Origin: Acidobacteriota bacterium
Lineage (GTDB): Bacteria > Acidobacteriota > Terriglobia > Terriglobales > SCQP01
Direction: 5' to 3'
Assembly (NCBI GenBank): GCA_027459505.1
Contig: DAIDIE010000028.1
Coordinates: forward strand, 1-64,000
DNA length: 64,000 bases
In this document: positions 2,997 through 58,780 of the stretch, piece by piece
Layout: every line of letters starts with the position of its first letter
How positions within the stretch are numbered: position 1 is the stretch's first letter
Translations under genes and position numbers: made by a program
The notes under the pieces: model-generated
Database searches by the model: none
What the model was told of the DNA's origin: nothing
What the model saw: the letters and a program-made list of their open reading frames with translations, nothing else

Positions 2997-3068
2997 GGAC
3001 GGCCCCAGACGAACTCGGGCGTCGCCAGCGGTGCGGGACCTAAACGGAAACCCCGGACCTTTACTACG

Positions 3069-3120
3069 ACTTCGGCCTGCGATTTCGAACTCGAAAGCAG
3101 TTCGACTCGGCCCTGGCTCG
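3069..3120. repeat. Dispersed stem-loop repeat, type A, copy 1
   Basis: A 52-bp stretch in the convergent gap between the aldo/keto reductase and oxyR. It matches 39059-39110 at 51 of 52 positions. The core has CCTGCGATTTC, then GAACT-cgaaagc-AGTTC able to form a 5-bp stem, then GACTCGG and TGGCTCG. The type B repeats at 25198 and 58692 share both flanks but have a different stem. Confidence 0.85.
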
Positions 3121-3168
3121 CATGGCTATCGCTAAAAGGATCTTTGCCTCCGCTGCTCATTGCATATT

Positions 3169-6465: not shown

Positions 6466-6506
6466 GCAATCCGGCCCTCACGGGTGATGTACGAGGGCTG
6501 GATTGC
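6466..6506 (+). terminator. Inverted repeat after katG
   Basis: Arms GCAATCCGGCCCTC (6466-6479) and GAGGGCTGGATTGC (6493-6506) give a 14-bp stem with one G-T pair and a 13-nt loop, starting 20 bp after the katG stop. There is no long T run, so it may stop transcription weakly or simply stabilise the mRNA. Confidence 0.55.
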
Positions 6507-6517
6507 TCTTGCATTGC

Positions 6518-6558
6518 AGGCGCGGCCTGGTCTGGTGAGCCGCCTGCCGGCATTGCTC
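6518..6558. repeat. Dispersed repeat, type C, single copy
   Basis: The segment GCGGCCTGGTCTGGTGAGCC followed by GCCTGCCGGCATTGCTC closely resembles the two tandem units at 25011-25111 (shared blocks: GGCC, GTCT-CTG-GCCGC and GGCATTGCT). It is intergenic, between katG and the zinc-finger gene. Confidence 0.6.
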
Positions 6559-6656
6559 CACCACTGTGGCGCGCTCCTTTGGACCCTAAGGCCTGCACCG
6601 GCAACCAATTCCTCTTGCTGGAATCCAAGCAAAGGACCGGTCAACAGGGAGGGAGC

Positions 6657-24442: not shown

Positions 24443-24994
24443 ATGTCCGTTTCCGCCCATGACAAGCTGGTCATCCGCGCAGTGGCCTGGCTGCGGCGCT
24501 ACGGCTGCGGCATTGTCCTTTCCGAGCAGTACTGTTCCACCGGTGAGGTACCGGATGCAATCGGGTGGAAGGGCCAATGCCGATCCGTGGTGGTGGAGTG
24601 CAAAGCGACCCGCGGCGATTTTCTGGCTGATGCGAACAAGCCTTTCCGCCTGAAGCCCCGCGAAGGGTTGGGATGTGAGCGCCTCTACCTGGCGCCGGCG
24701 GGGCTAATCCGGGCGGATGAGCTGCCGACCGGGTGGGGGCTATTGGAGGTCGAGCGCGGTGATATCGTCGTGCGGGTGAAACCGGCACGGCAGAGTCAGC
24801 GGACCGAGGTTGGGCTGCTGAAGGAAATGAATCTGCTGCTGGCCAGCCTGCGCCGGGTGGAGGTGCGAATCGAACCACAGTCGATCACCGACTTCCTGAA
24901 GTGGAAAAGCCGGCTGGCCGAGTACAACGGCGGAGTGCTCCCAGAAGGAGTGCTGCCGGCGGAAGATGAAGAGAATTCGCACCTGCAGGTCTAA
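24443..24994 (+). CDS. MmcB-like PD-(D/E)XK-fold protein
   Basis: 183 aa. The nuclease-like core is visible: EVPDAIGW with Asp38, a strand VVVECKATRGDFLAD with Glu52-x-Lys54, giving the D...E-x-K set of the restriction-endonuclease fold. MmcB in Caulobacter takes part in mitomycin-C damage response and this family is named for it. GTG at 24428 is a possible earlier start; the ATG at 24443 has only a weak AGG upstream. No SOS box was recognised. It is followed by the repeat-packed intergenic block and stands alone. Confidence 0.75.
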   Translation: MSVSAHDKLVIRAVAWLRRYGCGIVLSEQYCSTGEVPDAIGWKGQCRSVVVECKATRGDFLADANKPFRLKPREGLGCERLYLAPAGLIRADELPTGWGLLEVERGDIVVRVKPARQSQRTEVGLLKEMNLLLASLRRVEVRIEPQSITDFLKWKSRLAEYNGGVLPEGVLPAEDEENSHLQV

Positions 24995-25010: not shown

Positions 25011-25111
25011 GGCAGGGCCGCTTGTCTCCTGCGCCGCCCGCCGGCATTGCTCATAGTTGGGAGGCACGGCCTCGTCTCCTGAGCCGCGCGCTGGCATTGC
25101 TTACCGTTGGG
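25011..25111. repeat. Two tandem ~50-bp units of repeat type C
   Basis: Unit 1 (25011-25060) and unit 2 (25061-25111) share the order GGCA-GGCC, GTCTCCTG-GCCGC, GC-GGCATTGCT and GTTGGG at a period of 50 bp with small indels. A third, diverged copy is at 6518-6558. The opening block GAGGCACGGCCTCGTCTCC also recurs with two changes at 58671-58689, directly before repeat B. Confidence 0.7.
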
Positions 25112-25118
25112 TCGCTGG

Positions 25119-25140
25119 CACGTTCTCCAGTGAGAACGTG
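25119..25140. other. Perfect 9-bp hairpin
   Basis: CACGTTCTC, loop CAGT, GAGAACGTG. It lies between the type C tandem and repeat type B in the 254-bp gap between the MmcB-like gene and the RbsD/FucU gene. A further C/G-run hairpin (about 25160-25178) follows it. Confidence 0.6.
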
Positions 25141-25197
25141 AAGCCGCCGAGGCCGGGCTCCTCCCCCGCGCGAGGGGGCCGCCCTTAGGAATTTCGC

Positions 25198-25245
25198 GGC
25201 CCTCCACCTGCGATTTCCTCCCGCAGGGAGGAGTCGGTGGCTCGC
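25198..25245. repeat. Dispersed stem-loop repeat, type B, copy 1
   Basis: 48 bp that match 58692-58739 at 45 positions. Layout: CCACCTGCGATTTC, stem TCCTCCC-gca-GGGAGGA, GTCGGTGGCTCGC. It ends 4 bp before the stop codon of the RbsD/FucU gene. Flanks are shared with type A at 3069 and 39059 whereas the stem is different. Confidence 0.85.
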
Positions 25246-25248
25246 CTC

Positions 25249-25638
25249 TCAGGCGGATTCAAGGATCATATTCGCGTACTGGACAGTGTCGCCGGTTCGA
25301 ATCAGGCCAATGGCGGAGGGAATCCGACTTTTGAACATGACATGCGGCTCGAAATGCAAAGCAACGCTCCCAAGTGCCTGCCTGAATTGTGACACCGTGT
25401 CCGGCTGGTTAACGCCCAGGAACTCTTCTGCCATATACACGGCGCCCACGCTGAAGTTGGGGATCAGGGCTCGCCAAACATCAAGGACTTTGGGCAGATC
25501 ATCGACCAGCGAAAGGTCCACGGTTTCAATTTGTGGGAAGAACGGGAAGCCGCGATCCGCGATCACCAGCAGGTTGGTGTGGCGAACACGGCTGAGTAAG
25601 GAGTTGACGGCCGGGTTGAGAATTCCGGAACGGAGCAT
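25249..25638 (-). CDS. RbsD/FucU-family sugar mutarotase
   Basis: 129 aa from the ATG at 25638. Members interconvert pyranose and furanose (RbsD) or alpha and beta anomers (FucU) of ribose or fucose in the cytoplasm. Family marks: RHTNLLVIADRGFPFFP, the VDLSLVDDLPKVLDVW block, PHVMFKSRIPSAIGLIRTGD and the C-terminal QYANMILESA. RbsD/FucU cannot be separated by eye. It is divergent from a zinc alcohol dehydrogenase, so both may belong to a short sugar-oxidation route. Confidence 0.85.
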   Translation of the reverse strand: MLRSGILNPAVNSLLSRVRHTNLLVIADRGFPFFPQIETVDLSLVDDLPKVLDVWRALIPNFSVGAVYMAEEFLGVNQPDTVSQFRQALGSVALHFEPHVMFKSRIPSAIGLIRTGDTVQYANMILESA

Positions 25639-27944: not shown

Positions 27945-28254
27945 GCGGAGCTCTCCCGTGAACTGTCTCCGTTATAGCACGGCGGGCTTGTGCGGCAGGT
28001 GATGGAGGAGACTAGCCGACCAGTCGGCACGGCCGCTTTTATTCCACCCGCTTCGGTGTCCGGCCCTACCCCAAGCCGCGCGGCGCGGCTTGGGGATAGC
28101 TCGTAAGGATCCCGGGCGCCGTTGACTGCGGCTTACGTGCATCCGATTTGCAGGCCCGCCCTCCGCCCGTGGCGCGGGCCACCCGAGCTTCGCGGTAAAC
28201 ATCTACCGAAGCGTGCGAACGCCGCACACAAACACACAACCCAGGAGGTAATCG
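27945..28254. other. Intergenic stretch between acyl-CoA dehydrogenase and HhH gene
   Basis: No gene is supported here. It holds a perfect 12-bp hairpin (28069-28095), and the HhH leader with AGGAGG at 28243-28248. GGCACGGCCGC at about 28027 recalls repeat type C but the match is too short to count. Confidence 0.5.
28069..28095. other. Perfect 12-bp hairpin with 3-nt loop
   Basis: CCCCAAGCCGCG (28069-28080), loop CGG, CGCGGCTTGGGG (28084-28095), followed by ATAGCTCGTAAGGA. No T run, so not a classic terminator. It is placed between two divergent genes, which argues against termination; possible recombination or regulatory structure. Confidence 0.55.
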
Positions 28255-38884: not shown

Positions 38885-39058
38885 TTCCGCTCAACCATCC
38901 GGAAAACGAACGGTCGGTCAGGCCTTTGCCCCAAATTGGCCTTCTCTGTGCAGAGCTGCATCCAATCCCTGTTGCCAGCAAACCGCCCGCGCGCACACAC
39001 TAGGAGGGGGTGGTCTGCTCTGCCAGGCAGCGGCACGGGACCTGATAGGCAACCCAGC

Positions 39059-39118
39059 ACTTCGACCTGCGATTTCGAACTCGAAAGCAGTTCGACTCGG
39101 CCCTGGCTCGTAAGGAGG
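39059..39118. repeat. Dispersed stem-loop repeat, type A, copy 2, joined to etfB ribosome site
   Basis: 39059-39110 equals 3069-3120 with one change. It is followed at once by TAAGGAGG (39111-39118), the Shine-Dalgarno of etfB. In this copy the stem-loop GAACT-cgaaagc-AGTTC lies in the etfB leader and could affect its translation. Confidence 0.8.
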
Positions 39119-58459: not shown

Positions 58460-58780
58460 GAATTCCCATGGTAGCAGGACGTTAACAGCCGCGGTCTACG
58501 GCCCGCCGAGTCACCTGCCGGATCGCGCACCGCGAGTGCCGCTCATGTTCGTCACTCGGCGACTCGCCGGGCGCCAGACTCCGCAGCTCTGAAGGCCTGC
58601 CCTGGCGCGAACGCATCATTCTCCGTTGACGATCCCCCGGCCACCGATCACCCTTCCGCGTTCGGCGAATAGAGGTACGGCCTCATCTCCCGGCCCTCCA
58701 CCTGCGATCTCCTCCCACAGGGAGGACTCGGTGGCTCGCTCCTAAAGCAGCCTTGCCTGCAACCGCACCACGCGTCCGCT
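58460..58780. other. Intergenic stretch with repeat B copy 2
   Basis: No supported gene. Holds the ribE leader, the type C-like block at 58671-58689 and the type B stem-loop at 58692-58739. The rest shows nothing recognisable. Confidence 0.55.
58671..58739. repeat. Type C fragment joined to dispersed stem-loop repeat type B, copy 2
   Basis: 58671-58689 (GAGGTACGGCCTCATCTCC) matches 25061-25079 with two changes; 58692-58739 matches 25198-25245 at 45 of 48 positions. In copy 2 the stem is TCCTCCC-aca-GGGAGGA. The order C then B is the same in both places, although separated by about 120 bp in the first. Confidence 0.85.

Follow-up and report, generated by a model that had tools for sequence, protein, structure and literature searches.

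Fixed-ended intergenic repeats with a one-sided boundary rule and a shared orientation along the chromosome in an acidobacterial genome

Introduction

Bacterial genomes commonly carry small intergenic repeats, and for most of them the spreading enzyme is, to our knowledge, not known. The insertion sequences IS608 and ISDra2 transpose in single-stranded form, drawing on the lagging-strand template, and use subterminal hairpins together with a flanking target tetranucleotide (PMC6006769). The PATEs (palindrome-associated transposable elements) of Haloquadratum walsbyi are related to IS605, are gene-free, and lack inverted repeats and duplications, and their empty sites often hold a few extra bases (PMC3119063). 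Acidobacteria themselves carry RAYT/TIRYT-type transposases with TIRs of their own (PMC3733652, PMC6006769), and ERIC (RU) sequences and pneumococcal BOX elements are foldable composite intergenic repeats of 100-250 bp, modular in build and with internal size variants (PMC2759123, PMC3049150).

The two repeat families described here, R1 and R2, share features with each of these systems and match none of them fully. Like the IS200/IS605 elements (IS608, ISDra2), they have hairpin ends, cause no target duplication and have a target flanking one end only, and their co-orientation along the chromosome recalls the preference of those elements for the lagging-strand template; R1 and R2 are gene-free, however, and their target is one fixed base at distance 4, not a tetranucleotide. 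No insertion sequence with ends matching R1 or R2 was found. With PATEs, R1 shares the lack of terminal inverted repeats, near-terminal palindromes, the lack of target duplication, dispersal, nesting and a length too short for a transposase. PATE ends, in contrast, have a conserved terminal oligonucleotide where R1 and R2 have one fixed base (NNNG), and resemble IS605-type transposons of the host genome, whereas no such partner was found for R1 and R2. REPs, REPINs and TIR elements are likewise many-copy palindromic intergenic repeats, and RAYT genes are present in this genome, but REPs and REPINs measure 20-40 bp against the 180-190 bp of R1, flank RAYT genes, which R1 and R2 do not adjoin, and occur as inverted pairs, whereas R1 and R2 lie mostly in one orientation. 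Their GTAG or CGTC terminal tag is also absent; in R1 a CGTC does come after the left hairpin, but R2 and the R2-like family of a relative (genome G006, below) lack it. ERIC and BOX, compared with R1 by length and design only, resemble it in being composite, foldable and intergenic, and differ from it in that R1 has fixed ends, the NNNG boundary and co-orientation along contigs. A literature search, most subscription papers lying outside its reach, returned related kinds of repeat and neither the R1 nor the R2 family.

Results

The gap at 25011-25248 is one R1 copy and the remnant of an earlier one

The gap lies in a 64-kb window (the whole stretch of DNA analysed), which belongs to a draft MAG of 4.06 Mb in 45 contigs, 97% complete. 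On its left stands an MmcB-like gene (stop at 24994), which owes its name to the original prediction and whose protein is without a match in Pfam and NCBIfam; on its right stands a minus-strand gene with a Pfam RbsD_FucU match (stop codon 25249-25251). The original prediction had described two tandem C units, a perfect 9-bp hairpin, a C/G-run hairpin and a repeat B in this gap, and each of these parts is there in its place. Together they make up one non-autonomous, gene-free R1 copy of the 180-190 bp kind and the remains of an older copy.

The R1 copy is full-length, belongs to subfamily I and occupies 25061-25249 on the plus strand, with the left end GAGGCACGG and the right end GGTGGCTCGCCTCT (profile match 25060-25246, 198 bits; right end mapped to 25236-25249), so that its last base, 25249, overlaps the RbsD/FucU stop codon by one base. 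At its extreme 5′ end is the hairpin GAGGC-ACG-GCCTC (25061-25073), followed on the same strand by the perfect 9-bp hairpin CACGTTCTC-cagt-GAGAACGTG (25119-25140), which is kept in the other R1 copies compared, by the C/G-run hairpin (25155-25184) and by a core hairpin, GGGCCGC-CCTTAGGAATTTC-GCGGCCC, with a 13-nt loop CCTKCGGAATTTC (25176-25202). The right-end module, which is the former repeat B, comprises a hairpin CCACC...GGTGG and the right terminus (25203-25249), and is followed by the target-side bases CAG-G (25250-25253), which fit the NNNG rule described below. Each C unit spans 41 nt (25021-25061 and 25071-25111); they are spaced 50 nt apart and share 83% identity. Both exist, but the first is not a separate repeat: it is the left end of an older, truncated R1-type copy (25013-25060, plus strand; matching profile model positions 6-51 at E=1e-4 within the window).

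R1 spreads as a fixed-ended unit

In a first search of the genome, positions 66-251 of the gap query were found jointly and in order at 41 places, at 86-97% identity; because the C part and B co-occur in this way with the 9-bp and C/G hairpins, all four form one repeat. With up to 3 mismatches allowed, the genome contains at least 82 sites of the core 21-mer CCGCCCTTCGGAATTTCGCGG and 0 of a reversed control, a recurrence far above chance. End mapping, in a sample of 1.47 and later 1.87 Mb (about 46% of the genome), places the ends of R1 sharply to the base amid unrelated flanks, at N|GAGGCACGGCCTC on the left and GGTGGCTCGCTCCT| on the right. R1 thus spreads as one fixed-ended unit. The genome-wide search that had been proposed for the single parts shows them to be repeats dispersed through the genome and inserted in gaps; they are neither unique to the locus nor a fixed ancestral block kept in relatives. 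The view that C, the hairpins and B were inserted as independent modules does not hold, since they recur as one sharp-ended unit with the same order and spacing at more than 40 places.

R1 copies commonly measure 180 bp in subfamily II (CTCCTTCAGGCCG), 189 bp in subfamily I (CTCCTGAGCCGCCCGCTGGCATTG), or about 230 bp, a length seen mostly where B contains a 41-bp hairpin. This hairpin, CGGGCCCCAGCAACGG...CCGTTGCTGGGCGGG, lies in the B part of several copies (C10:80228, C18:5027, C42:85494 and others) and is possibly a third small element. The five pairs of the left-end hairpin are all intact in 68 of 83 copies, and truncated copies of both R1 and R2 occur, shortened at either end. Terminal inverted repeats are absent from R1, as are target duplications and complementary flanks in a scan of 54 copies; R1 does not fit a classical MITE, which would have the inverted repeats and the duplication. 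The R1 copies of this genome are too alike to inform a covariation analysis, and no Rfam covariance model matches R1.

Contig ends fall some 140 bp into subfamily II copies that are almost the same in sequence (for example C6:1-141, C10:1-141, C18:1-140 and C42:1-140). Subfamily II has probably spread recently, since its copies are nearly identical and several contigs start or end inside them. As contigs break inside R1, the repeat breaks the assembly and the R1 count is a lower bound.

Elsewhere in the window, an R1 copy with its middle deleted and both ends kept lies at 58671-58743 on the plus strand (profile match), followed by AAAG in keeping with the NNNG rule, and a diverged left-end fragment, the C part alone, lies at 6518-6560 on the plus strand (profile model 3-45, E=6e-4). 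Parts of the gap had been said to recur near these two places, and a search with the gap sequence bears this out (B at 58685-58739, 91% identity, E=1e-16; C at 6502-6557, E=2e-6), but the order "C then B" at 58.7 kb results from the deletion within R1 and not from an independent assembly. The window also holds three plus-strand pieces of R2: two right parts, at 3020-3125 (right end to 3121, then ATGG, which fits the rule) and at 39024-39116 (right end to 39111, then AAGG), and a left part at 28025-28074 (profile match).

A second family, R2, shares the design of R1 and is invaded by it

R2 was found through the flanks of some R1 copies. It is about 175 bp long, and 1.87 Mb of the genome yielded at least 106 matches to it, on contigs C9, C10, C14, C31, C34 and others. 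Where R1 has GAGGC-ACG-GCCTC, its left end has the hairpin GCGGC-ACG-GCCGC, with the five pairs intact in 53 of 69 copies, so that the A-T pair of R1 is exchanged for a C-G pair in R2. At 88.5 kb of contig C10 an R1 copy is nested within R2, and relative to uninterrupted R2 copies 6 bases (TTCGAC) are missing at the site, which parallels the extra bases of PATE empty sites. In two copies the 5′ part of R2 is fused to R1 at an identical junction. A strict pair search for filled and empty sites by flank matching gave none, and the R1-in-R2 case was found by hand.

One boundary rule is common to R1, R2 and repeats of other genera

The fourth base past the right end of R1 is G in 74 of 78 copies, and the left flank is random; the flank is conserved at the right end only, and G is the sole constant base among the four (NNNG). 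R2 ends in GACTCGGCCCTGGCTCGT, then NNNG in 62 of 67 copies. The same rule is found in other genera of the bacterial family: core-type repeats of the genomes G002, G007, G009 and G010 end in ...CCCCGCG[A], then NNNG in 27 of 28 cases, and the R2-like family of G006 ends in ...GTTAACGCTT, then NNNG in 31 of 39. Against a G frequency of 0.32, the corresponding p values are 8e-32 for R1, 3e-25 for R2, 8e-13 for the core-type set and 1e-9 for G006.

Copies are co-oriented along the chromosome and avoid divergent gaps

Within 60 kb, 162 of 179 R1 and R2 copies share the local majority orientation (p=7e-31, with copies treated as independent), and the orientations of the two families agree mutually (67/76 and 77/89). 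The bias is equally high in the best-conserved and the most-diverged third of copies, so that insertion is a likelier origin for it than slow selection. Orientation tracks the T-A skew at third codon positions, averaged over both gene strands, in 42 of 51 windows (contig-flip p=0.00015); this skew is a replication-type signal. The association with G-C skew gave p=0.06, and gene strand did not explain repeat orientation (p=0.19). On contig C29 of G006, a run of 27 "+" copies gives way to 6 "−" copies at a single switch (254-275 kb), about 30 kb past the maximum of cumulative G-C skew. In the window's genome, no switch in skew is seen around dnaA on C8, and marker genes that bear on leading versus lagging strand are few. 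Orientation switches within several contigs of this genome, more often than two replichores would yield in a chromosome that is not rearranged. Consistency is lower in G002, where opposite orientations lie 1.6 kb apart.

Gene context was taken from a simple purpose-written gene caller, whose calls are approximate. The gaps that hold R1 are codirectional in 45 cases, convergent in 17 and divergent in 11, and R1 overlaps a predicted gene 7 times; this compares with 289 codirectional, 71 convergent and 171 divergent among all gaps of at least 200 bp (including gaps lengthened by the repeats themselves); divergent, promoter-bearing gaps are thus avoided and convergent ones mildly favored. The proposal that convergent gaps are permissive survives as this mild preference, but the avoidance of divergent gaps and the co-orientation by strand form the clearer pattern.

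Relatives share the core hairpin and the design, not the R1 unit

The relatives searched are other genera of the family and include none of the window genome's own genus; among them, near-full R1 was found in this genome only. Other genera share only the core hairpin (in G013, the core and part of B), inside different repeats. Its 13-nt loop is constant across several genera in otherwise different repeats and is the only shared part of high identity, while its stem covaries, GGGCCGC/GCGGCC- here against GACCCGC/GCGGGTC in G005; some of this covariation is probably one inherited change. Scanned for across the whole collection, the core 21-mer had 21 matches, all in acidobacterial MAGs; in the class sample, none of the 199 remaining genomes carries it. 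An exact 24-mer of the repeat had no match among named genomes, a set from which the species itself was possibly left out. G006, a different genus with no detectable core, has an R2-like family of 47 copies in 0.4 Mb (contigs C29 and C12), with the left hairpin GCGGC-NCG-GCCGC (five pairs intact in 32 of 39). The other 13 family genomes hold no homologue of the MmcB-like gene from which synteny or an empty site could be read.

Discussion

The best explanation, to which we give a probability of about 0.55, is that these are non-autonomous, PATE-like repeats inserted in single-stranded form, in step with replication, by a putative trans-acting enzyme. Such an enzyme would recognize the hairpins of the single-stranded element and would insert it 5′ of NNNG, always with the same polarity with respect to the replication fork, like IS200/IS605-type elements and PATEs. 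Taken together, the hairpin ends, the missing duplication, the one-sided base rule and the chromosomal polarity recall single-strand transposition as carried out by HUH enzymes, and from this we infer that R1 moves as a single strand during replication. Intergenic gaps, chiefly those without divergent promoters, would tolerate these insertions, and truncated and nested copies would presumably accumulate there as a result. No mobilizing enzyme tied to R1 was found, and although spaced pairs of R1 ends exist, none was traced to a transposase gene as a longer autonomous version. More tentatively, and at odds we consider rather long, a single mobilization system, neither RAYT nor reverse transcriptase, might be common to several genera of the family; it would move several repeat families, read a 5′ hairpin (GNGGC-NCG-GCCNC, or the core hairpin with its constant 13-nt loop), join the other end three bases before a G and keep one polarity relative to replication.

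That the RAYT (REP-associated Y1 transposase) genes of the genome move R1 and R2 seems unlikely. Two PF01797 genes are present (on C42 and C40), the C42 protein scores 76.7 bits against NCBIfam REP_Tyr_transpos, just below the cut-off of 80, and among 14 family genomes the core hairpin and PF01797 occur together in 8, are both missing in 5, and the core stands alone in 1 (Fisher p=0.003). The C42 gene, however, is bordered by palindromes of its own and lacks R1 or R2 ends, and the C40 gene, cut by a contig end, shows one flank; the Y1 genes of seven relatives have neither R1/R2 ends nor intact core hairpins outside the gene, and the RAYT genes checked for inverted repeats carry different palindromes; the GTAG tag is missing from the R1 and R2 ends; and G006 has co-oriented repeats that obey the rule, yet no PF01797 hit at 96% completeness. 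The flanks of the RAYT-like Y1 transposase gene at C42:123703-123957 carry the palindrome GCCCACTCAAC...GTTGAGTGGGC and direct CAACTGACAACTGACAAC tracts.

The repeats could instead be kept for a cellular function, either one that needs chromosome polarity, as do FtsK-orienting or architecture-imparting sequences, or as 3′-end RNA structures. The strong co-orientation, the depletion from divergent gaps and a loop conserved across genera on a covarying stem would all suit such a role, but we hold it to be quite improbable: the near-full unit occurs in this genome alone, the equal bias of best-conserved and most diverged copies fits an insertion bias over slow selection, the one-sided NNNG boundary is the signature of an insertion, and no Rfam family matches.

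Similarly improbable is rolling-circle (IS91/Helitron-like) transposition in place of a circular single strand, with the hairpin as terminator, a one-sided target and neighboring sequence sometimes carried along. A hairpin at one terminus, a target rule at the opposite end only, the lack of duplication, and the two copies that share one junction between a 5′ part of R2 and R1 agree with it; no Y2_Tnp (PF04986) hit was obtained, but the control of that search was also silent, so that this proves little.

Successive insertion of independent modules into a permissive convergent gap, as in the original prediction, is very unlikely. The truncated left end adjoining a full copy, R1 inside R2 on C10 and the 41-bp hairpin variants do show repeated insertion building mosaics, and to that extent the idea stands; the parts of R1 are not themselves modules, however, and for them it is refuted by the joint recurrence of C, both hairpins and B.

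Retroposition may also produce strand bias, but that R1 spreads by reverse transcription of RNA is highly improbable: the unit is structured and GC-rich, truncated copies are present and the strand bias could be accounted for, yet truncation affects both ends of R1 and R2, and the sole reverse transcriptase found in the genome is of the UG19 defence type, with no group II intron or retroelement enzyme. This 701-aa protein (DRT type, C39:90888-91292; PADLOC 525 bits) is encoded by the minus-strand ORF 253-2358 of its segment.

Returning to single-stranded, replication-linked insertion, four repeat sets from several genera share one boundary rule, and one chromosome polarity where this was most fully tested. 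The shared rule and polarity together provide a concrete signature with which to find the enzyme and to test replication-linked insertion. For the organism itself, the repeats account for part of the fragmentation of the draft genome and place foldable sequence beside gene ends.
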